From the NCBI GenBank assembly GCA_017614995.1, contig JAGAAX010000052.1:1-64000 (forward strand): DNA of 64,000 bases. The letters are read 5' to 3'. The notes under the pieces were generated by a model. The model did no database searches and was not told where the DNA came from. It saw only the letters and a list, made by a program, of their open reading frames with translations. Within the stretch, counting starts at the first letter, position 1; every line of letters begins with the position of its first letter. The translations under genes were made by a program, and so were the position numbers. Source of the stretch: Spirochaetaceae bacterium. Lineage in GTDB: Bacteria > Spirochaetota > Spirochaetia > Treponematales > Treponemataceae. Shown here piece by piece: positions 15,872 through 46,797 of this stretch.

Positions 15872-17782
15872 ATGGCATCTTCATTTGCAGGAATAGAATT
15901 GGGAAAAAGGAGCTTGATGGCTCAGGCTCAATCAATCAACACAGCAGGTCATAACATTTCAAATGCTGACACAGAGGGTTATTCACGCCAGCGTGTAAAG
16001 GTACAGGCTTTTGATCCTCTTTACAGACCTGATTTGACACGTGAAAATACACCGGGACAGATTGGTCAGGGCGTTACTGTAGAATCTGTAGAAAGAATCC
16101 GCGACACTTTGCTTGACAAGCGCATTGTTGCCCAGAGCAATCAGGAAAGCTATTGGGGCACACGCGAAAAATATTACGTAATGCTCGAAAATATCTACAA
16201 TGAACCAGATGCAGTTTCTATCAGAACTACAATGGACAAATTCTGGGAATCATGGCAGGAACTTTCGCTTTACCCTGAATCTACGGCTGCCCGCATGTCT
16301 GTAGTAAGCCGCGGCGATTCGCTTGTAAATTCAATTCACAACCGCTACACAGGTTTGATGGGCATCGGCAATCTTTTGAACGGCGACATTGAATCTTCTG
16401 TACGCCAGGTAAACGACATTGCAAACCAGATTGCAGAAGTAAACAAAGAGATTGTTAAGTCAAAGGCAATGGGCGACAATCCTAACGATTTGCTTGACCG
16501 CCGCGACTTGCTCGTAGAAAAGCTTTCAAGTCTTATCAATATAACAACAGACGACCGCGATGCTGATGAGTTCATGGTTCATCTTGACGGACATATTCTT
16601 GTACAGGGTGGGGTTGCAAGAAATTTTGCCGTAGAGCCATTAGTTGAGAACAACGGTTATTCTAAGGTTGTCTGGGCTGATACATGGAACGACGCTGTGA
16701 TTACAGGCGGTTCGCTCGGTGCATTGATTGAGCTCCGCGATGTAGATGTCCGTGAAGAGTTGCAGAGCCTTAACACAATGGTAATGAACTTTGCCGACCT
16801 CGTAAACGATGTACACCGCAATGCAATCGGTGCAAACAACGTTACAGGTCTTGACTTCTTTGTTGAGCAGCCATTTGTTACAAACATTAACGGAAACTAC
16901 GACAGAAACGGCGACGGCGTTGAAGACACTTCTTATGTTTTCCGTATCAGCGGAAAGAATTCGCTTATTCCGACAGAACAGGTTGGTCTTGAAGGCATAA
17001 TCACAATCGCCGGAAAAACACGCAATATCGAAGTTCCGTATCATGCAACAGATACAGTTGATGACATCGTTAAGAGAATCAACAACTACGACGGCGAAGT
17101 AAAAGCTTATCTTGATAAGAATAACAAGCTCGTGCTTAAAGCTACAGCAGCTTATGCAATGGAAAATCCTGATTTTGTTATCCGTCACGTTGAAGATTCA
17201 GGCCATTTCCTTGTAGGTTATGCAGGCATTTTAAGAGCGCGTGGTGAAGCCGGTGCTTTTGACTTTAACAGAGCTGACGCAGTAAACGCTCTTGTTGCAG
17301 ATACAGCCGAAATTGTTTCTGGCAAAATCGAAGGCGGCGCACAGTTCTCTGTAGCACCTGTAGCAAATCCTTCGGGCTACTTTACAATCAACCCGGCAAT
17401 CAAGAACGACGTGCTTTCTGTTGCAGCTTCTTACCCGATTCACAACACAAGCCGCGAGGACGGCGACGGACGTGCAGCTCTTGAAATTGCTTCTTTGCGC
17501 AATTCCGAAGTAATGATTGGCAAAGCTAAGACAATGGACGATTATTTTGCACAGACTGTTACAAATGTCGGTCTTAAAGGCGAGCAGGCAGAAATGAACC
17601 TTATGAGCCAGATGGCTATAATGGAAGACCTGCGCTCGTTGAGAGATTCAATTTCTGGCGTAAACATCGACGAAGAACTTGCTGACATTATCAAGTTTCA
17701 GCATGGCTACAACGCAGCGGCTAAGTTTGTTACTGTAATTGACGAAATGCTTGATACAGTAATCAACCGTCTCGGCGTGTAA
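15872..17782 (+). CDS. flgK: flagellar hook-associated protein 1 (FlgK)
   Basis: 636 residues. The N-terminal flagellar rod/hook motif contains INTAGHNISNADTEGYSRQRV (about residues 23-43). A long variable central region follows, and the C-terminal helical domain contains FQHGYNAAAKFVTVIDEMLDTVI. FlgK forms the first hook-filament junction ring. AAGGAG is upstream. It is second in the operon flgN-flgK-flgL, 14 bp before flgL. Confidence 0.95.
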   Translation: MASSFAGIELGKRSLMAQAQSINTAGHNISNADTEGYSRQRVKVQAFDPLYRPDLTRENTPGQIGQGVTVESVERIRDTLLDKRIVAQSNQESYWGTREKYYVMLENIYNEPDAVSIRTTMDKFWESWQELSLYPESTAARMSVVSRGDSLVNSIHNRYTGLMGIGNLLNGDIESSVRQVNDIANQIAEVNKEIVKSKAMGDNPNDLLDRRDLLVEKLSSLINITTDDRDADEFMVHLDGHILVQGGVARNFAVEPLVENNGYSKVVWADTWNDAVITGGSLGALIELRDVDVREELQSLNTMVMNFADLVNDVHRNAIGANNVTGLDFFVEQPFVTNINGNYDRNGDGVEDTSYVFRISGKNSLIPTEQVGLEGIITIAGKTRNIEVPYHATDTVDDIVKRINNYDGEVKAYLDKNNKLVLKATAAYAMENPDFVIRHVEDSGHFLVGYAGILRARGEAGAFDFNRADAVNALVADTAEIVSGKIEGGAQFSVAPVANPSGYFTINPAIKNDVLSVAASYPIHNTSREDGDGRAALEIASLRNSEVMIGKAKTMDDYFAQTVTNVGLKGEQAEMNLMSQMAIMEDLRSLRDSISGVNIDEELADIIKFQHGYNAAAKFVTVIDEMLDTVINRLGV

Positions 17783-22727: not shown

Positions 22728-24755
22728 TTATTGGTTATTTCCTGAATTCTGCTTGCTGAAATTAGAAATCTTTGTAGATTGAGATTCCAGCGTATTCAAA
22801 GTGCTTTCCATTTTGGTGTACTTTGTTTTAAGCTCGGCTTCTTTGTCTGCAAGCTGATCTTCCAGTTTTTTTATTTGTGTTTCAGTTGACTTAATTCTTG
22901 AGTCGACAGTTGTTGTTTTGGCGGCAATAATTCCGCCGACCTGTGTATATGAGTTCAGGTTTCTTTCTACTGAAAAACCGACGCCCATATCAGCTATCAT
23001 ATCATTATCGGCATCATAACCGAAAAGATTCTTGATTTCTGCCATATTATTCTTAAGCGCGTTGTCAAGAACTTTTTCGTCAATCTCAAGATAGCCGCGC
23101 ATCTGCGAAGGTGTCGCGCTGCCGCCGGCTGTTACTTTAGAAGAAATGCCGATTTGAGAGAGCATTTTTATTTTTTCGTTGTCTTCTATTGCATAAGGCG
23201 CGACAACTGCGCGTTGTAATGCCTGCTTGTTAGAAGTCAGCGTAAAATCTGCCTGAAAAAGCCCGAGGCGTTTTAATGCGTCTTTACGCTCGTCGTCTGT
23301 AAGGTATTCAAGCTCGTTTACGATTTCTTCTTTTGTTTGTGTAAGAATATTAAGCTCTGCCATAAGGCGGTTGTAGTTGCCTACAAACTCAATTATGGCG
23401 CTCTTTGCGTCTTCTGTGTTGTTTTCAACTGTAAGCGTAACCGGCTTTGATGAAGAATTCTGAAGATTCAGCGTTATATTTGGAATAATGTCGTCAATTG
23501 AATTTTCAGAGCGTGTCATTGTAATGCCTTCGTATTTTACGCGGGCATCTGCGGCAAGACTTACCGGGTTGAGCGGTATTACGTCTCTTATTGTCTGTGA
23601 GTCATAGGCACGCACGTCTGTAATTTCTGCGATTTTGCCTGTGTTGAAGTTCTTTATTACAATGCTTGAAATATCCGGGTAATCTGAAAGTTTGAATGAA
23701 ACTGTAGCAATTTCTTCTTTTGAAGAAATCTGACCCAGAGAAGTTTCTGTGCCGTTACTGCGGCGGACATAAACAAGCGAGTAGTTTTCTACTTTTTCAA
23801 GTTTTGGTGCCGGTTCAGAGTAGGGCAGGTCTAAGTCCATCGGAGCGTTTAAAATGCTTATTGAGTCAAGCTCAACTTTACCCGGCTCTTGAAGCACCGG
23901 TTTTGTCTCTTCAGCAGCTTTTGCTGTTTCAGTAATGTCTTGAGTCGGAATAAGCTTTATTTTAAGCGAAACAATGCTGTCCTGCTTGTTTAAGATTTCG
24001 TCTTTAAGAATAATTGCCGCTCCGCTTTGCGGCTTAAACTGCAATACGCCCGATTTTAATGCAACGCCGTCGCTTGAAAGCTGTGAGATGGGCTGCAAAT
24101 TTCTTGTAGACTGAAGAATCGGGGTAGAGGCGGTCTTGCTTTGAGCCTGAATTATGCCCATGCCGGCGGCTAATGCAAGTGCGTCGTCGCCAAAAGAAAG
24201 CTCGTTGTCAATGCCGGTTTTGAGCGATTCAATTGCCCAAACTTTTGTGTTTTCTGTTACGTTGATTAACGAGGCTTTTAATAAGTCGTTGCCTCTTTTG
24301 TTAAGTGAATCTGTAAATTCTGCCAAAGAGCCGCCGCGCCAGTTGAACGAAATAACCTTTGAGCCGACTTTGAAAGTGTATTTTCCGGCTTTTACAGAAA
24401 AATCTTTGGTGAGGTTATTTGAAAGAAATTTATCTGCTGCGGCAACCTGTTCGATTGTTATGCTATATTTACCGGCAGGCGTGTCTCTTTTGGCGTCTGC
24501 TGTAACTACAGAATCATCTGATGAGGATACAGATTTTTCGATGAATGGGTTGTTATAAGAAAACAGACCCCGGGCGTTGTCGCGTACCGAGGTCATGTAT
24601 TGATTGACCCGCTGCCAGCACTCTCTTTCGAGCTTGTAATTATCAAGTTTACTCTGCTCTCGTGTTAATGGAACTCTTTCGACTTCCATTAAATTTTTCA
24701 CGAGATCATTTGTCTTGTATTTGTCGCTGACACCAGGAATGTTTATTTCAGCCAT
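22728..24755 (-). CDS. fliD: flagellar filament cap protein FliD
   Basis: 675 residues. The N-terminal FliD_N segment contains INIPGVSDKYKTNDLVKNLMEVERVPLTREQ (read in part), the middle is a long variable region, and the C-terminal FliD_C coiled coil includes KNLFGYDADNDMIADMGVGFS and LKTKYTKMESTLNTLESQ. It caps the growing filament and promotes flagellin polymerisation. It follows flaG by 24 bp on the same strand. It is longer than enteric FliD (about 470), owing to an expanded middle region. Confidence 0.95.
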   Translation of the reverse strand: MAEINIPGVSDKYKTNDLVKNLMEVERVPLTREQSKLDNYKLERECWQRVNQYMTSVRDNARGLFSYNNPFIEKSVSSSDDSVVTADAKRDTPAGKYSITIEQVAAADKFLSNNLTKDFSVKAGKYTFKVGSKVISFNWRGGSLAEFTDSLNKRGNDLLKASLINVTENTKVWAIESLKTGIDNELSFGDDALALAAGMGIIQAQSKTASTPILQSTRNLQPISQLSSDGVALKSGVLQFKPQSGAAIILKDEILNKQDSIVSLKIKLIPTQDITETAKAAEETKPVLQEPGKVELDSISILNAPMDLDLPYSEPAPKLEKVENYSLVYVRRSNGTETSLGQISSKEEIATVSFKLSDYPDISSIVIKNFNTGKIAEITDVRAYDSQTIRDVIPLNPVSLAADARVKYEGITMTRSENSIDDIIPNITLNLQNSSSKPVTLTVENNTEDAKSAIIEFVGNYNRLMAELNILTQTKEEIVNELEYLTDDERKDALKRLGLFQADFTLTSNKQALQRAVVAPYAIEDNEKIKMLSQIGISSKVTAGGSATPSQMRGYLEIDEKVLDNALKNNMAEIKNLFGYDADNDMIADMGVGFSVERNLNSYTQVGGIIAAKTTTVDSRIKSTETQIKKLEDQLADKEAELKTKYTKMESTLNTLESQSTKISNFSKQNSGNNQ

Positions 24756-26402: not shown

Positions 26403-27263
26403 CTATCTGAGCAAAGACAGAACATTCTGTGAATTGCTGTTAGCCTGAGCCAACATAGCAGTTCCTGCCTGTGTAAGGATCTGGTTCTTGGTGAATTCTA
26501 CCATTTCGCCAGCCATATCAGTATCACGGATGCGTGATTCTGAAGCAGTCATGTTCTCTGCTGTGTTGTCAATTCCGCGGACAGCATGTTCCAAACGGTT
26601 CTGGTAACCACCGAGATCTGCTCTCTGTTTGTTTACCTTTTTCAATGCTTCATCAAGTGTGTTGATTGCGCGGTTGGCATCATCCGGTGTAGCAAGGCTA
26701 AGAACTGCTTCACTACCAATTTCGCGAACACCAAGAGCAGAAGCAGTCATTGTACCAATGTACACCTGAATTCTCTGATCCATGTTTGCACCAATATGGA
26801 ACCACATAGATGCTGTAACAGCATTTTCTCCAGTTGGGCGAGCGAAACGACCTGTCAAGAGGTTCATTCCGTTGAACTGTGCCTGGCTGGCGATGCGGTC
26901 AACTTCAGCAACAAGCTGAGAAACTTCAACCTGGATCTGCATACGATCTTCAGAGGTATAGATACCGTTAGCTGACTGAACTGAGAGCTCACGAAGTCTC
27001 TGCAAAATATCAGTTGTTTCGTTCAGATAACCTTCTGTTGTCTGGATGAAGCTGATACCATTAGAAGCATTCTTTGAAGCCTGGTTCAAACCACGGATCT
27101 GTGATCTCATTTTTTCAGATACTGCAAGTCCTGATGCATCATCGCCTGCGCGATTGATTCTCATACCTGAAGAAAGTTTTTCCATATTCTTTTGTACTGC
27201 GAGGTTTGTAATACCGAGTACGCGGTGTGAATAGATAGCCGACATGTTGTGGTTGATGACCAT
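26403..27263 (-). CDS. flaB: flagellar filament core protein FlaB (copy 2)
   Basis: 286-residue FlaB flagellin, closely similar to copy 1 in both terminal helical regions ([17 protein letters not shown] start, [52 protein letters not shown]). It differs mostly between residues 140 and 200. The ATG at 27263 with GGAGGAAAAAT upstream is chosen; the open frame extends 50 codons further but that part has no flagellin similarity and contains the leader hairpin. Spirochaetes commonly carry several FlaB proteins that co-assemble into the filament core. Confidence 0.97.
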
Positions 27264-27304
27264 ATTTTTCCTCCATGGAAAGATGTCAAACAGCATCCGT
27301 GCTG
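27264..27304 (-). promoter_or_regulatory. putative CsrA-binding leader of flaB copy 2
   Basis: On the minus strand hairpin GCAGCA-CGGA-TGCTGT (core 27291-27304) exposes GGA in a 4-nt loop. The run GCACGGATGC is close to the CsrA consensus ACA-GGA-GT. The Shine-Dalgarno ATGGAGGA, 8-13 nt before the start, holds a second GGA. Same architecture as copy 1 with unrelated stem sequence. Confidence 0.6.
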
Positions 27305-27429
27305 CTTGTTTTGTGCAAAATAAGCTGATTAAGTACAAGGCCACTATTTTGCTTATTTTGCACGATGAAAAGCGATGCAGTCTGTTGACTTCTACGAAGA
27401 ACCTGACTGTCATAACTTCTCATAAGTAA

Positions 27430-30771: not shown

Positions 30772-31650
30772 ATGAAATTTTTACTGTTTTCTAATTCTGC
30801 GGAAACACAATTCCGGGTCAGACGGATTGCAAACCCTGCTGAAGATTCGCTTGTTACAATAAAAGACGAGGCACTTTTTTTAAGGCTCATAAATTCATGC
30901 GGGTTTGACCTTTTTTTGATAGACTTGACTTCGGACTGTCATTTTTCAGATTTGCGCGCAAAAATGCGGGATTGCAGGCTTGAAACTCCATGGATTTTGC
31001 TGAGCACGCAGACAAATCTTTCTTATAAAAGCTATGTGAACTATTGGAATGCGTTAAACGGAATCAAGCTGTGCAAAAATGGTGCAGACTGTGTTTTGGA
31101 GAAAAAGCTTGAGGCACTTGCGTTTTCGCTTAAGCGCACAAACTGTCTTGATATAAGCAAAAATGCGCGGAAACTTCTGGAAGTTTTTTCAGAATTTCAT
31201 AATAAGCCGGTTGCCGCAGAGGCGCTTCAAGTCAAAGTTTTTGGTGAAGCATCAGAAAAGAACAGAAACCTGCTTTACGGGCTTATCCACGAAATAAGAA
31301 AGGCTGCCGGCGACGATTTGGAGCGTCCGCGCAATCTAATCCGCTGCAAAAAAGGCTGCTACAAGCTTACAGGTGTCTTTCCAGAAAGCAGTCTTGACAT
31401 CTGCATTTATGGCAGACCTCTCGAAAGCGAGTATGCAAGAATTTTTCCGTCTGCCGGAAGTGCAGGCTACGATGAAGTTGCGGAATTTGCAGAATACAAA
31501 GCAGAGACTGAAAATGAAAAATCTTTTACGGAATTTTTTGCAGAAATAGTGGAAGAGCGCAAAAAGTATTCAGATTATTGGTTCAGTTCTGTGCCGAACA
31601 CGCAGTATTTGTATGAGGCTGTTGAAAGGCTGAACGGCAAAAAAGGATAA
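30772..31650 (+). CDS. pseudo-receiver plus winged-helix regulator
   Basis: 292 residues. The N-terminal 120 residues have a receiver-like pattern (FDLFLIDLTSD holds an Asp at the phosphorylation position), but the acidic pair expected near residues 8-10 is replaced by FSNSAET, so metal binding and phosphorylation are doubtful. Residues about 128-205 form a winged helix of the Trans_reg_C type (ARKLLEVFSEFHNKPV, LQVKVFGEA, LIHEIRKAAGDDL, LIRCKKGCYKL). The tail of about 85 acidic residues is unassigned. GGGAGAG precedes the start. There is no partner kinase nearby, so it may be an atypical, phosphorylation-independent regulator. Confidence 0.65.
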   Translation: MKFLLFSNSAETQFRVRRIANPAEDSLVTIKDEALFLRLINSCGFDLFLIDLTSDCHFSDLRAKMRDCRLETPWILLSTQTNLSYKSYVNYWNALNGIKLCKNGADCVLEKKLEALAFSLKRTNCLDISKNARKLLEVFSEFHNKPVAAEALQVKVFGEASEKNRNLLYGLIHEIRKAAGDDLERPRNLIRCKKGCYKLTGVFPESSLDICIYGRPLESEYARIFPSAGSAGYDEVAEFAEYKAETENEKSFTEFFAEIVEERKKYSDYWFSSVPNTQYLYEAVERLNGKKG

Positions 31651-32741: not shown

Positions 32742-32814
32742 GGGCCATTAGCTCAGCTGGTAGAGCAACAGACTCTTAATCTGTGGGTCGACGGTTCGAA
32801 GCCGCCATGGCTCA
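32742..32814 (+). tRNA. tRNA-Lys (CTT)
   Basis: Acceptor GGGCCAT/ATGGCTC, D-arm AGCTGGTA, anticodon stem ACAGA/TCTGT with loop CTCTTAA (anticodon CTT), T-loop TTCGAAG, discriminator A. CCA is not encoded. Confidence 0.94.
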
Positions 32815-32848
32815 AAAAAGCGAATCTCTTATGATTCGCTTTTTTTTG
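32815..32848 (+). terminator. terminator after tRNA-Lys
   Basis: AGCGAATC (32819-32826) pairs with GATTCGCT (32833-32840), preceded by A-run and followed by eight T residues. Confidence 0.93.
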
Positions 32849-32907: not shown

Positions 32908-32941
32908 TTGTACGGCTGAAAAACTGTGATATAATAAAGCT
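32908..32941 (+). promoter_or_regulatory. promoter of the c-di-GMP protein, leaderless geometry
   Basis: TTGTAC (32908-32913), 16 bp, TATAAT (32930-32935), then exactly 6 nt to the ATG at 32942. There is no Shine-Dalgarno in this space. Confidence 0.6.
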
Positions 32942-35866
32942 ATGGGTAGTGTCAGCAGTGTAAAAAAAGCTACAGTGCTAATAATAGAAAGCAGCAAAGA
33001 AAATGCCGCGCAGCTTTCGGAAATTATTTCGCCTCATTACAATGTCGTCTGTGCATCTGACAAAAACGAAGTTCTTTCGTTGTTTAAAGATGACAGCGTT
33101 TCTGCTGCAATTATTGATATTCCAAATGCGCTTTCTGTATTAACTGAAATACGGCATGACCCGCTGCTTGAGGATTTTCCTGTATTAGTCAGTGTCGCTG
33201 AAAACGATTCATTTGTTGAAGACCAGCTTCTGGATCTTGGAGTTATTGATTTTCTTAAAAAGCCGTTTGCTGTCCGCAGTGTTTTAAGCCACTTAAAAAT
33301 TGCCGTACGTCTGTTTGAAGCAAACAGCGTTATTGACGAACTTGAACGCGATGATCTTACCGGCCTGTTCACCCGTCCTGCGTTTTTGCGCAAGTCAGAT
33401 GTGATGCGGCGTAAAAATCCTGATAAAACTTTTGCTATTATTGGCTTTGACTTTGATAATTTCAAAATGTCAAACACTCTGTATGGCGAAGAAAAATGTG
33501 ATGAATTCCTTGCATATACGGCGCATGAATTCAGAAGCCTGATTTCAGGCGGAATAATCGGGCGCTTCGGCGGCGACCAATTCGTTTTATTTATTGAGTA
33601 CAAAGATAAGGTTGATGCGGACAAAATACTGAAAATCAGCCGTCATCTGCTTGATTCAGCTCCAATTCCGCATCAGACAGTGAAAATCGGCATTTATGCG
33701 CCTGTAGATTTTTCTCTGCCGATTGTTATCTGTAGTGACAGGGCGTTTCTTGCTATACGCGATATAAAGGGCATTTACGGCAAGGATATTTCGTTTTACG
33801 AAAATAAATTGCAGAAGCAGCTTCTTAACGAGAAGCGCATCATAGAAACAATGGAAACCGCGCTCGAAGAAGAGCAGTTTGAAGTTTATTACCAGCCCAA
33901 GCATGAAACAATAACAGGCAAGATTGCCGGTGCAGAAGCTCTTGTCCGCTGGAATCATCCCGAATTCGGTTTTATGTCTCCGGGGCAGTTTATTCCGCTT
34001 TTTGAGCGCAACGGCTTTATCACAAGGCTTGACAATTTTATCCTTGACAAGGTTTGCAGTGACATAAAACGCTGGCAGAAAATGGGGCTGCCTGTTGTGC
34101 CGGTTTCTGCAAATGTTTCCCGCCGCGATTTTATGGAAAACAACGCCATCGACCATCAGGTGGATATTATCAACGGTCACAAGATTGACCATTCGCTTCT
34201 TCACATGGAAGTAACCGAATCGCTTTATTCTGAAAACACCGACCTTATCATCTCGCAGGTGAAAAAAATACAGAAGATGGGCTTTTCAATTGAAATGGAT
34301 GATTTTGGCTCAGGCTATTCTTCGCTCGGGCTTCTTTCAACATTTCCACTTGATATACTCAAGCTTGACATCAGTTTTGTCCGCAATATAAAAGAAAACG
34401 AAATCGTCATCGAGAATGTCATCAAGATGGCGCACCGCATGGGGCTTCTGACAATTGCTGAGGGCGTTGAGTCTAGCGAGCAGTTTAAGACGCTTAAGAC
34501 GCTCGGCTGCGATTTTATCCAGGGGTTTTATTTTTCAAAGCCGCTTACAGCCGCGCAGTACGAAGCCTATTTAAAGAACCAGTCTGTATTGACAGGCGGA
34601 AAAGCTCTGCTGAAAAAAGTCTCTGACTCTGATTATTCGTCTTTAAGCGACGACATGCTTATGGCGGCAAACGAAGTAGCAGAGGGAATCCCGGGCGGCT
34701 TCTTCTCGTATCATGCTGACGGCAACCTTGAGATTATTTCGTTTAACCATGAGCTTATGGATTTGTATGACTGTGAAACCGCCGAAGAGTTCCGTAAATA
34801 TACAGGCAATTCGTTTAAGGGCATTGTTTTTGAAGAAGACTTTGAAAGAGTTCAGCAGAGCATTGAAAGCCAGATTACGCCGGAAAACGATTTGGATTAT
34901 GCTGAATACCGCATAAAATCCAAAAACGGCACAATCAAAAATGTCAGAGATTACGGCAGATTTGTTCATACAGAAAAATACGGCGACATTTTTTATGTAT
35001 TTATACGCGACATAACAGAAGAGGAACGCAAGAAAAAACTTGCAGAAGAAGACCGCCAGAGAAAACTTGCGCTTGAGCATTATGCTGAAATTGCAGAAAG
35101 AACTAACAAGGCAAAAAATATCTTTATGTATAACATAGCAAGAGATATTATGCCGTCTGTAAAAGAAATTATCAGCGCAACAAATAAAATGCGTGAGAAT
35201 ATTTCAAAGCCGGAAATAATAAGCCCTCTTCTTGATGATGTCCGCAAATCAGAAGAGAATATGCTGAGCTTTATCAACAATATTCTTACGTTTACAAAGC
35301 TTGAAACAGGCGAAATCGAGCTTGTTGAAATTCCTACAGATTTTTCTCACGCAGTTGAATATACTTACGCGCTTATCGAAAAAGATGCAAAGGCAAAAAA
35401 CATCAAAGTTGAGTATTGGTCAGATATTACCAACCCGTACATTTATCAAGACCCGGTACATACGGCAGAAGTTGTTTCAAATATTCTCCGCAATGCCATT
35501 AAGTACACGCCTGAAGGCGGAACAGTCAGATTTGGCATAGAGCAGACACCGGGCAGAACAGCAGACGAATGTATTGTAAGCTTTATCTGCGAAGATACGG
35601 GAATCGGCATTTCTGAAGAATTTCTGCCGAACGCGTTCAGAAGCTTTTCACGCGAGGACAACGAGATAAACAGAGCATACCCGAGCGCAGGTCTTGGACT
35701 GAATATTGCCAAAACCCTTATACTTTTAATGCATGGTTCAATTGAAATTACAAGCAAAAAGGGCAAGGGCACAAAAGTTAAAACCTCTCAGCCGCACCGC
35801 TATGCAAAGCAGTCTGACATCGGCAATGATACAGATGTAATGTTTTCATCGAATGTACGCCTGTAA
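32942..35866 (+). CDS. receiver-GGDEF(degenerate)-EAL-PAS-pseudo-histidine-kinase protein
   Basis: 974 residues, soluble. Order: receiver-like domain (9-125, weak acidic pocket); GGDEF domain (about 135-290) with GGDQF in place of GGDEF near 208; EAL domain (about 297-545) with EALVRW (332), NVSRRDF, MEVTES, MDDFGSGYSSL, KLDISFV and AEGVE, so all usual metal and catalytic residues are there; a PAS domain (about 585-690); and a kinase-like end (705-945) in which the HisKA position reads NIARDIM, with Arg where His should be, while the ATP lid keeps N, DTGIGI and GLGLNI motifs. Likely a c-di-GMP phosphodiesterase with sensory and ATP-binding regulatory modules. Confidence 0.9.
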   Translation: MGSVSSVKKATVLIIESSKENAAQLSEIISPHYNVVCASDKNEVLSLFKDDSVSAAIIDIPNALSVLTEIRHDPLLEDFPVLVSVAENDSFVEDQLLDLGVIDFLKKPFAVRSVLSHLKIAVRLFEANSVIDELERDDLTGLFTRPAFLRKSDVMRRKNPDKTFAIIGFDFDNFKMSNTLYGEEKCDEFLAYTAHEFRSLISGGIIGRFGGDQFVLFIEYKDKVDADKILKISRHLLDSAPIPHQTVKIGIYAPVDFSLPIVICSDRAFLAIRDIKGIYGKDISFYENKLQKQLLNEKRIIETMETALEEEQFEVYYQPKHETITGKIAGAEALVRWNHPEFGFMSPGQFIPLFERNGFITRLDNFILDKVCSDIKRWQKMGLPVVPVSANVSRRDFMENNAIDHQVDIINGHKIDHSLLHMEVTESLYSENTDLIISQVKKIQKMGFSIEMDDFGSGYSSLGLLSTFPLDILKLDISFVRNIKENEIVIENVIKMAHRMGLLTIAEGVESSEQFKTLKTLGCDFIQGFYFSKPLTAAQYEAYLKNQSVLTGGKALLKKVSDSDYSSLSDDMLMAANEVAEGIPGGFFSYHADGNLEIISFNHELMDLYDCETAEEFRKYTGNSFKGIVFEEDFERVQQSIESQITPENDLDYAEYRIKSKNGTIKNVRDYGRFVHTEKYGDIFYVFIRDITEEERKKKLAEEDRQRKLALEHYAEIAERTNKAKNIFMYNIARDIMPSVKEIISATNKMRENISKPEIISPLLDDVRKSEENMLSFINNILTFTKLETGEIELVEIPTDFSHAVEYTYALIEKDAKAKNIKVEYWSDITNPYIYQDPVHTAEVVSNILRNAIKYTPEGGTVRFGIEQTPGRTADECIVSFICEDTGIGISEEFLPNAFRSFSREDNEINRAYPSAGLGLNIAKTLILLMHGSIEITSKKGKGTKVKTSQPHRYAKQSDIGNDTDVMFSSNVRL

Positions 35867-44070: not shown

Positions 44071-45074
44071 CGGATAACAATGCGCAAGGTAAAATTGCTC
44101 TAGTGGAATCTTCTTATACGATTGTCGTTTCAGATACAGAGCTACTTTCTCAACTGTGCGGCATAAATGACAGTAATTTGCAACTCATCGAAGAACACTT
44201 GGGTGTAAGCGTTTTTTTGCGTGGAAACGAGCTTTCTATTTTTGATGCCGGTGCAGAGACTTGCGACCGTTTTAAGCTTCTGCTTGAGCGTGTAATAAAC
44301 GAGCTTTCTCACGACAGTTCCAATCCAAAAGATGTTATTCAGTCTGTTATAAAAGATTTTGCTGATTCAGACCAGAACGGCGGCGAGGAGATTCATCCGT
44401 CTCTTGCAAAAAATTTTATACAGATTCCCGGCGCGTTTCAGCGCGTTTATCCAAAAACAGCACAACAGGCGGCTTTTATTGCTGCTATGCGTAAATATGA
44501 TATGGTCTTCTGCTCTGGCCCTGCCGGCTCAGGCAAGACTTTTCTTGCTGTGGCAGAAGCATTGTCGCTTTTGCTTTCAAGAAAAAAGCGCCGGCTTGTG
44601 CTTACAAGGCCTGTGGTTGAGGCAGGCGAGAGCCTCGGCTTTTTGCCCGGCGACCTTGAACAGAAGATAAACCCGTATTTACGGCCGTTGTACGACGCAA
44701 TGGACAGCCTGCTGCCGAGAGATGTGCTCCGCCGTATGGACGAAAACGGCATGATAGAGATTGCACCGCTTGCATATATGCGCGGACGCACTCTGAATGA
44801 CAGTGTAATCATTCTTGACGAAGCGCAGAATACTACAACAGAACAGATGAAAATGTTCTTAACAAGAATGGGAGAAGGGTCAAAAGTATTTATTACCGGC
44901 GACATAACTCAAATAGATTTGCCGAAGCGTGTAACATCAGGGCTTATTCAGGCAACAGAGATTCTTTCTTCTGTTGACGGCATCTGTGTAATGCAGATGC
45001 ATGCTGATGATGTTGTGCGGAATCCTTTGGTGAAAAAAATAATTAGAGCTTATCAAAATGCGGAAGAATTTTAG
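44067..45074 (+). CDS. phoH: PhoH-like ATPase (YbeZ)
   Basis: 335 residues. An N-terminal KH-like region is followed by the PhoH ATPase with YPKTAQQAAFIAAMRKYDMVF, Walker A GPAGSGKTF (about 151-159), RPVVEAGESLGFLPGDLEQKI, Walker B VIILDEAQNTT and the ITGDITQIDLP motif. The start is TTG at 44067, overlapping the lptD stop by 4 nt. PhoH/YbeZ acts with YbeY in RNA maturation, and ybeY lies two genes downstream, as in other bacteria. Confidence 0.93.
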   Translation: MTDNNAQGKIALVESSYTIVVSDTELLSQLCGINDSNLQLIEEHLGVSVFLRGNELSIFDAGAETCDRFKLLLERVINELSHDSSNPKDVIQSVIKDFADSDQNGGEEIHPSLAKNFIQIPGAFQRVYPKTAQQAAFIAAMRKYDMVFCSGPAGSGKTFLAVAEALSLLLSRKKRRLVLTRPVVEAGESLGFLPGDLEQKINPYLRPLYDAMDSLLPRDVLRRMDENGMIEIAPLAYMRGRTLNDSVIILDEAQNTTTEQMKMFLTRMGEGSKVFITGDITQIDLPKRVTSGLIQATEILSSVDGICVMQMHADDVVRNPLVKKIIRAYQNAEEF

Positions 45075-46797
45075 TAGAAATCGTAACAGCCAGCACAAAG
45101 ACGGAATCTTATTGCATTACATTCATTCTATAATGGAATCTGTCAATAAATCAAAGTCATGTCTGCTTGTATTGCTTGCAGTGTTTTTGCTCGCGGCTTT
45201 TACTTCAATTATTGATTATGCAACCAGAAACAAGGCTGTTAAGCCGCTTTATACGGAATATGAAGTCGGACAGATTTCTGATATTACTGTTGTTGCAAAG
45301 CGGACAATAATTCCTGTGACAACAGACGGACTTGTTGTGCGTGCCGGCGAGAAGATTATCCGCAAAGGTTTTCCTATAACAGAAGAAGCTTACGAAAAGC
45401 TGAAAATTATTGCCGATGAGCCGTCAAAGATGGACTTTAAAGGTGTGGGCAGAACCGTTCTTTTTCTGCTTCTGCTTGTTCTTGTTGCACTGCTTTCATT
45501 TAAGGCGCTTCAGAAAAATCATATTTTCAAATTAAGAGAAGCTGTTTTCTTGGGCGCGCTGTTTATTCTTGTTTATTGTTTAGCCGCACTGATGGTAAAC
45601 ACAAAAACATTGCAGTCGCCGTTCTATCTTCTTGTAGTAATTCCGGCGGCACTGTGCACAATGCTTATTACCATTCTTATAAATATTGAGACGGCAAACT
45701 GTTTTTCGCTTATATTTGCAATGGGCAGCTTTGTAGCTACTTCTTATAATCCTGTAGTCTTTCTTTTTGTGCTGATTTCGAGCCTTATAAGCGCGCGCCT
45801 TGTCTGCAAAATGGAAAAACGCATTGATTTTATCTATGTGTCGTTTATTCTTGCGTTTTTAGATGCGCTTGTTCTTTTTGTCCTTTGGGTGATTTTCCCG
45901 CGTACATCCGCAAATATTGCTATAAGCCTTGTCGGAATTGCGTTCAACGGCTTTATTTCAGGTGTGCTTGTTCTGGGCTTTCTTACGCCGCTTGAGAGCC
46001 TGCTCAACGCTGTCACTGTTTTCCGTCTTATGGATTTGTCAGACTTGAACACACCGATTATGAAGCATCTTATGGTTACGGCGCCGGGAACATACAGCCA
46101 TTCTATGATGGTTGCAACGCTTGCAGAAAGTGCGTGCCGCGAGATAAATGCAAACCCGCTGCTTGCGCGTGTCGGTGCTTACTACCATGACTTGGGCAAG
46201 CTTGAGCAGCCCGAATACTTTGTAGAAAACCAGGGCGCGTACAACAAGCACGACGAGCTTAATCCGCGGCTTTCGGCTTCTATTATCAGGCGGCACGTCA
46301 AGAAGGGCGTAGAAAAGGCGCACCAGCTTCATCTTCCGCAGGAAGTTATCGACATTATCGCCGAGCATCATGGAAACGGAATTATCGCCTATTTTTATAA
46401 TGAAGCCAAAAAGCTTGATGAATCAATTTCGCCGGACGAGTTCTCTTATCCGGGCAATCCGCCTTCAACAAAAGAATCTGCTGTTGTAATGCTTGCCGAT
46501 ACTGTTGAGGCTGCGTGCCGCACGCTTGAGAAGCCTTCAGTTCCGCGCCTTGAGAAATTTATACGTCAGCTTGTAATGAAAAAGTACGAAGACCGTCAGC
46601 TTGACAAGTCTACTTTGACATTCAAAGAAGTTGACACAATTCAGGAAGTTTTTGTAAACACACTTGCAAGCTATTATCATTCGCGCATTGAGTACCCGAA
46701 CCAGAAAGACCCTGACCAGAATGATTCAAACGAGAAGGGCGATGATGGCGAGAAGCAGGAAAAACAGGAAAAGAAGAATGAATCTAAGGAAAACTAG
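45058..46797 (+). CDS. pgpH: 7TM-HD phosphohydrolase, PgpH-like
   Basis: 579 residues. TM1 lies about 33-52, then a short extracytoplasmic part of about 80 residues, then about six membrane helices (130-310). The cytoplasmic HD domain follows with APGTYSHSMMVATLAE, YYHDLGKLEQPEYF, RHVKKGVEKA, IAEHHGNGII and MLADTVEAACRTL, the full set of HD metal ligands. PgpH proteins hydrolyse c-di-AMP. The extracytoplasmic region is far shorter than in Listeria PgpH. It overlaps phoH by 17 nt and ends one base before ybeY. Confidence 0.9.
   Translation: MRKNFSRNRNSQHKDGILLHYIHSIMESVNKSKSCLLVLLAVFLLAAFTSIIDYATRNKAVKPLYTEYEVGQISDITVVAKRTIIPVTTDGLVVRAGEKIIRKGFPITEEAYEKLKIIADEPSKMDFKGVGRTVLFLLLLVLVALLSFKALQKNHIFKLREAVFLGALFILVYCLAALMVNTKTLQSPFYLLVVIPAALCTMLITILINIETANCFSLIFAMGSFVATSYNPVVFLFVLISSLISARLVCKMEKRIDFIYVSFILAFLDALVLFVLWVIFPRTSANIAISLVGIAFNGFISGVLVLGFLTPLESLLNAVTVFRLMDLSDLNTPIMKHLMVTAPGTYSHSMMVATLAESACREINANPLLARVGAYYHDLGKLEQPEYFVENQGAYNKHDELNPRLSASIIRRHVKKGVEKAHQLHLPQEVIDIIAEHHGNGIIAYFYNEAKKLDESISPDEFSYPGNPPSTKESAVVMLADTVEAACRTLEKPSVPRLEKFIRQLVMKKYEDRQLDKSTLTFKEVDTIQEVFVNTLASYYHSRIEYPNQKDPDQNDSNEKGDDGEKQEKQEKKNESKEN

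Follow-up and report, generated by a model that had tools for sequence, protein, structure and literature searches.

The locus studied here raised the question of what a histidine kinase module that lacks its histidine may be doing at the end of a phosphodiesterase of cyclic di-GMP (c-di-GMP). The gene lies in a window (the whole stretch of DNA analysed, 64,000 nucleotides) from the draft genome of a Spirochaetaceae bacterium (3.05 Mb, 64 contigs), in which we counted 14 EAL matches. A sequence-only reading had described here an EAL domain with its catalytic motifs, a GGDEF motif changed to GGDQF, and a HisKA site with arginine in place of histidine and with the ATP-binding motifs kept, and had suggested that either the energy state or a partner kinase could influence c-di-GMP breakdown. 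The open reading frame, at positions 32942-35866 of the plus strand as given in that reading, starts with ATG and encodes 974 residues. On the basis of the ORF list, the translation and Pfam, its domain order was assigned as receiver (REC), degenerate GGDEF, EAL, PAS, pseudo-HisKA and HATPase_c, all on the plus strand.

The receiver (residues 12-118, 32975-33295) scored 32.1 bits with Pfam Response_reg, against a cut-off of 30.2, and was followed by the degenerate GGDEF domain (residues 136-252, 33347-33697; 56.3 bits), which indeed reads GGDQF at residues 210-214 (33569-33583). The EAL phosphodiesterase domain (residues 303-534, 33848-34543) scored 223.7 bits, and E332, N391, E423, D453, D454, K474, E507 and Q527, which we take to be the catalytic residues of EAL, were all present. 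The PAS domain (residues ~570-690, 34649-35011) was delimited by a Pfam PAS_3 match at 614-678 and by the secondary structure of our model, and the DHp-like, i.e. HisKA-like, helical hairpin (residues ~724-795, 35111-35326) by Pfam, the model and superposition; the HisKA match itself (residues 751-790) was sub-threshold in Pfam, with 18.4 bits against a cut-off of 26.9. The HATPase_c (CA) domain (residues 837-949, 35450-35788) scored 75.1 bits and kept its ATP-site residues, with the N, G1 and G2 boxes reading NILRNAIKYT, EDTGIGIS and SAGLGL. All of the residues named in the sequence-only reading were therefore correct, and what it had missed were the receiver (12-118) and the PAS domain (614-678).

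The H-box of the window protein reads FMYNIARDIMP, with R734 (codon AGA, 35141-35143) at the position of the phosphoacceptor histidine. In the phmmer sequence alignment R734 was placed opposite His260 of HK853, in what we take to be the residue numbering of 2c2a. To this we could add a structural superposition. The model of residues 566-956, built from a 62-row alignment, had a mean pLDDT of 91.3 and matched the HK853 complexes (5UHT) with Z 24.5 over 231 residues at 2.7 A, and DivL (4q20) with Z 24.0 over 225 residues at 3.1 A (Foldseek, VIA-align). Model residues 153..389 were superposed on residues 244..480 of 5UHT, and the offset was 91 at both ends of the range; thus model residue 169, which is R734, corresponds to residue 260. 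The full-length model was poor (pLDDT 65, pTM 0.32) and cannot serve as an argument for any contact of the tail with the EAL domain.

A nearby in-frame histidine at the active site had been named beforehand as the observation that would speak against a missing phosphoacceptor. We found no such residue within the DHp helices (~724-795) of the window protein; from residue 690 on, histidines occur only at 713, 803, 840, 931 and 952. Position 773 was considered as an alternative acceptor and rejected, as it is His in 18 of the 38 family proteins but Asn in the window protein.

Following the check proposed in the sequence-only reading, we next asked whether orthologues lack the histidine as well. 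A family-wide scan at E <= 1e-50, with the window's own tail as the query, gave 39 matches, spread over 38 of 274 Treponema-family genomes and 3 of 20 genera; such a query favours similar tails, and more distant fusions could escape. The occurrence was patchy: within the genus of the window 6 of 8 genomes had the tail, and among genomes with a completeness of 90% or more and a contamination of 5% or less it was present in 11 of 128. Open frames without stops, of 961-1078 aa, were present in 37 of the 39 matches, the remaining two being of 864 aa and, at a contig edge, of 142 aa. The contig-edge match (L187), which does not reach the His site, was left out, and this gave 38 proteins of 37 genomes (two in G233). 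The set of 19 distinct proteins was obtained by leaving out L039, L048, L049 and L050 as near-duplicates (>97%) of L014, L018, L017 and L012. Twelve named orthologues, found via EAL-domain peptides among the best 80 of 543 relatives, belong to Treponema bryantii (L041), to further members of Treponema, and to MAGs with the label Treponemataceae or Spirochaetales, from which we take Treponemataceae to be the family of the window. A set of 148 relatives' genomes yielded the window protein and ten full-length orthologues.

In the 38 readable Treponemataceae proteins, the residue at the His site was K in 15, R in 10, Q in 7, L in 2, H in 2, N in 1 and D in 1, and in the 19 distinct proteins K in 7, R in 5, Q in 5, L in 1 and H in 1. 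None of the 12 named orthologues had His there. The loss is therefore conserved, with 36 of the 38 readable proteins lacking the histidine and the ATP site being kept. The control kinases behaved differently. Of 24 loci matched by the same tail query, 23 had His opposite the site and the remaining one was not aligned there; kinases in the flanks and among the relatives of the EAL-peptide search (best 80 of 543) had it in all 49 rows, of 55, that cover the site; and 40 ordinary kinases, picked by hand from 64 kinase stretches for length and spread, had it in 40 of 40. In the available part of one survey, HisKA domains without His made up 0.9% of the sample, 722 of 76,471 (PMC12632262).

The two proteins with His are L019 (from G089) and a near-twin from G149, 99.9% identical over the stretches compared. 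The His codon of L019 is CAC, and the other four rows of its supported five-row clade have Gln, encoded by CAA or CAG. Since its clade-mates have Gln, the simplest reading of the alignment is that His in L019 arose by a change from Gln after an ancestral loss and is not an ancestral His, the branching inside the clade being uncertain. In L019 the acidic residue that adjoins the site (just after it), D or E in 30 of the 38 family proteins, is replaced by Asn.

The CA domain gave the opposite picture. N851, K854, Y855, D885, G887, G889, F902, E905, G917 and G919 were present in 38 of 38 family proteins, Arg904 of the F-box/lid was R in 36 and K in 2, and N847 was N in 35 of 38. Mean pairwise identity over 19 family sequences was 41.2% in DHp and ~62% (62.0-62.5) in CA; in the 40 ordinary kinases the order of the two domains was reversed, with 51.9% in DHp and 36.7% in CA, and it is this order that can be compared and not the levels, the 40 kinases being diverse paralogues and the 19 being orthologues. 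The reversed order indicates that the phosphotransfer helices were released from a constraint which the nucleotide-binding domain still bears. Identities in the other domains over the 19 sequences were 42% in REC, 63% in GGDEF, 74% in EAL and 68% in PAS. In five pairs dN/dS was 0.05-0.10 for EAL and 0.06-0.17 for CA, and it was also well below 1 for PAS; for DHp it reached 1.03 in one pair (L010/L011), a value resting on a dS of 0.02, and for the C-terminal tail it was 0.70 in the pair L017/L042.

The family therefore combines a predicted kinase fold, a histidine lost across the lineage, and selection, as expected of pseudo-histidine kinases; compared with an ordinary histidine kinase, the window protein has the ATP-site residues and the predicted DHp-CA fold and lacks the phosphoacceptor His and a HisKA score above cut-off. 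The degenerate state of the HisKA, REC and GGDEF motifs alike could also point to a decaying gene without special function. We find this barely conceivable, given the full open frames in 37 of the 39 matches, the dN/dS well below 1 in EAL, PAS and CA, and the invariant CA and EAL sites. By sequence and predicted fold, the tail is a conserved pseudo-histidine kinase attached to a predicted c-di-GMP phosphodiesterase, and the EAL domain is probably active, as judged from its residues. The earlier suggestion of an ATP-binding pseudo-kinase joined to EAL is thus well supported at the level of sequence and predicted fold, because the histidine is absent in 36 of 38 proteins in which the ATP site is kept; the response of c-di-GMP breakdown proposed in the same reading is a conjecture that goes beyond this.

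Directly after the CA domain we noticed a family-specific C-terminal motif, QPHRYA, with a histidine (His952, 35795-35797) that is invariant in the family alignment (38 of 38). Such a residue, together with the kept CA-site residues including Arg904 and the acid after the His site, would be in line with a CA domain that is still a catalyst in trans and phosphorylates, within a heterodimer, a partner kinase or Hpt on its His, or some other residue. We regard this as very unlikely: the DHp helices are divergent, His952 lies outside them, and no conserved partner gene was found beside the family loci.

The eight EAL residues listed above were invariant in 38 of 38 family proteins. The GGDEF motif could be read in 35 of the 38 and was GGDQ in 34 and SGDQ in 1, with Q213 in 19 of 19 distinct proteins; the motif of active diguanylate cyclases, GG(D/E)EF, was found in none of those 35. 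The phospho-Asp of the receiver was D in 8, Y in 6, E in 3, N in 1 and S in 1 of the 19 distinct proteins, i.e. it was lost in 11, and the window protein keeps it as Asp59. In 68 wider REC-GGDEF-EAL relatives, among the best 80 of 543, the EAL residues were intact in 68 of 68 and the receiver Asp was D in 59, and the E of the EF of GGDEF was missing in 65 of the 67 readable ones. With this E left in just 2 of 67, the GGDEF domain seems to have degenerated early in the history of the wider family; what sets the Treponema branch apart, in the same alignments, is that it has the pseudo-kinase tail and has often lost the receiver Asp.

PdeA is a FimX-like case of regulation by GTP through a GGDEF-type site. 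Along these lines, GTP in the GGDQ site and the PAS domain could be the regulators that matter, with the kinase-like tail serving merely as a dimerisation handle. The near-invariant GGDQ, the generally degenerate GGDEF of the wider family and the activation of FimX by GTP, which raises its phosphodiesterase activity via the degenerate GGDEF according to the accessible part of a review (PMC8846402), are consistent with such a role. However, an ATP site that hardly varies among 38 proteins from 37 genomes would be superfluous in a pure dimer handle, and we consider this explanation quite unlikely.

The active histidine was lost in nearly all relatives yet the ATP-binding site was kept, and for this reason the kinase-like tail probably works as a switch operated by ATP or by a partner, and not as a kinase. 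Our tentative explanation, which we would put a little short of an even chance, is that the nucleotide-bound tail gates the EAL dimer, with former phosphorelay parts now serving to regulate its conformation. The architecture, the conserved loss of His, the kept ATP-site and EAL residues, the purifying selection and the predicted fold were computed. The C-terminal DHp/CA module would no longer autophosphorylate, ATP would bind the intact CA domain, and CA would dock on DHp in a state with Lys, Arg or Gln at the old His position, possibly touching the gamma-phosphate. This docking state, the signal from PAS and GTP in the GGDQ site, for which FimX offers a precedent, would together set the geometry of the dimer and in this way the activity of EAL; we infer here that ATP and GTP are bound, that the phosphodiesterase is active, and that these functions are coupled allosterically.

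The prevalence of Lys or Arg (25 of 38) at the place where the gamma-phosphate would meet the histidine suggests, speculatively, that this residue acts as a clamp. A version of the mechanism that we judge unlikely makes the protein an energy-gated phosphodiesterase, in which the tail would be an ATP/ADP sensor, Lys or Arg would clamp the gamma-phosphate and lock CA on DHp, and ATP (in CA), GTP (in GGDQ) and a PAS ligand would jointly control c-di-GMP breakdown. Several points count against gating by the nucleotide-bound tail in general: the acid largely kept next to the His site, for which a pure switch has no use, the His found in 2 of 38 proteins, the chance that the CA domain is kept for a partner instead, the elevated ratio for DHp in L010/L011, and the example of DivL, the best characterised pseudo-kinase, which works by docking a response regulator and binds ATP poorly.

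Among the window's neighbour genes tested beside the 12 named orthologues (tblastn 1e-4), none was found, the sole exception being one locus in which uvrA gave weak matches of the ABC type, and no gene family of the flanks was family-wide across 13 loci (the 12 named and the window), the widest reaching 6 loci and clustering in L040, L041, L042, L044 and L049; some of the contigs are short (4.1 kb for L046, 8.3 kb for L042), and absence there means little. The 12 named loci contained no match to the gene for a LysM/M23 peptidase, which starts 78 bp downstream of our gene, nor a tRNA (aragorn), a flagellin-like ORF or FliD. A terminator-like hairpin (32814-32845, plus strand; pattern match only) follows the upstream tRNA (32742-32814) and would part the gene from the upstream genes. 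The hairpin and the lack of a neighbour conserved across the family suggest a stand-alone gene, without a cognate kinase or regulator alongside.

We also observed a perfect TATAAT at 32930-32935, six bases before the ATG and absent from the promoter-scan output, with no clear ribosome-binding site visible; this may point to a leaderless mRNA or to a true start a little further downstream. Elsewhere in the window, a 292-aa protein (30772-31650, plus strand) matched an OmpR-type DNA-binding domain with 24.1 bits against a cut-off of 26.2, without a Pfam receiver match, and is possibly an atypical regulator, and the ORF at 45058-46797 (plus strand) encodes a 7TM receptor with an intracellular HD hydrolase domain (7TM-7TMR_HD, HD), a possible further cyclic-nucleotide enzyme. 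The window also holds genes for FlgK, FliD and flagellin (15872-17782, 22728-24755 and 26403-27413), a plausible output of c-di-GMP control.

The main rival to gating by nucleotide is a partner module similar to that of DivL, the pseudo-histidine kinase of Caulobacter, in which the pseudo-DHp would dock a phosphorylated response regulator or pair with an active kinase and report this to EAL, with ATP being secondary. The match of our model to DivL, tied with that to HK853, agrees with this, as do nine kinase-like matches to the tail in the window's genome (G000; the window protein included, and kinase-like by tail match alone). According to the part of the DivL study that was available (PMC4211667), the output core of DivL is repurposed as a sensor of phosphorylated response regulators, which it docks; its His site has a conserved Tyr, with Ala in one species, and TNP-ATP is bound weakly, at 57 uM. 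In the window family K, R or Q instead predominate at the site, with L, N, D or H in the few other proteins, and the ATP-site residues hardly vary; moreover, conservation is lower in DHp than in CA, and there is no conserved partner gene next door. We therefore hold a module of this kind to be somewhat unlikely.

To our knowledge, few pseudo-histidine kinases have a known job. They are rare, and the one described here, present in 38 of 274 Treponema-family genomes, is joined to an enzyme whose output can be measured. Nature also supplies variants with K, R, Q and even H at the decisive position, so that the role of a His-less kinase fold becomes testable by a phosphodiesterase assay. A pseudo-kinase-phosphodiesterase fusion was not found described in the open-licence PMC literature, searched by titles and abstract openings, among the matches listed.

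Several known systems share parts of this architecture. HK853 and ordinary HisKA kinases have in common with the window family the (predicted) DHp-CA fold and the ATP-site residues, and differ in the phosphoacceptor His, which the family lacks, and in the inverted pattern of conservation. The 68 REC-GGDEF-EAL relatives (L051-L118, among the best 80 of 543), mostly from gut Clostridia, share REC, the degenerate GGDEF and the intact EAL at 33-46% identity, but their EAL ORFs have no kinase-like tail (BLAST E 1e-8), except for five clostridial single-chain fusions with a kinase tail that keeps the His (L059, L062, L096, L099 and L104; 1381-2204 aa). The sequences of L059, L062 and L104 also show a terminal receiver. 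In three Lachnospiraceae REC-GGDEF-EAL proteins (L055, L101 and L111) the C-terminal PAS domain is 52-58% identical to that of the window protein and the chain ends there; the idea of a split gene was rejected, as no kinase half was seen by eye on the plus strand within 1.8 kb (L055, L101) or within ~0.4 kb to the contig end (L111).

The FimX-type GGDEF-EAL proteins share the degenerate GGDEF ahead of EAL and are not known to have a pseudo-kinase tail. In the accessible part of the review of c-di-GMP sensing, ATP is mentioned just for CBS domains (PMC8846402). The hybrid response regulator LvrB of Leptospira (8vc9) has, like the window protein, an N-terminal receiver and a C-terminal kinase-like CA domain in one chain, and the available part of its description does not mention EAL or GGDEF (PMC5863495). 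For CckA (title of PDB 5idm) and RavS (PMC6707612), c-di-GMP is reported to bind to the CA domain, and we considered that it might bind the CA domain of the window family in the same way. DivL shares PAS, DHp and CA, and a phospho-His replaced family-wide, and differs in that no enzyme domain is attached to it, whereas the window family has EAL in the same chain. Pseudo-histidine kinases and EAL-kinase fusions are thus known kinds, and a pseudo-kinase on a phosphodiesterase, conserved across related genera, would be a new combination of them.
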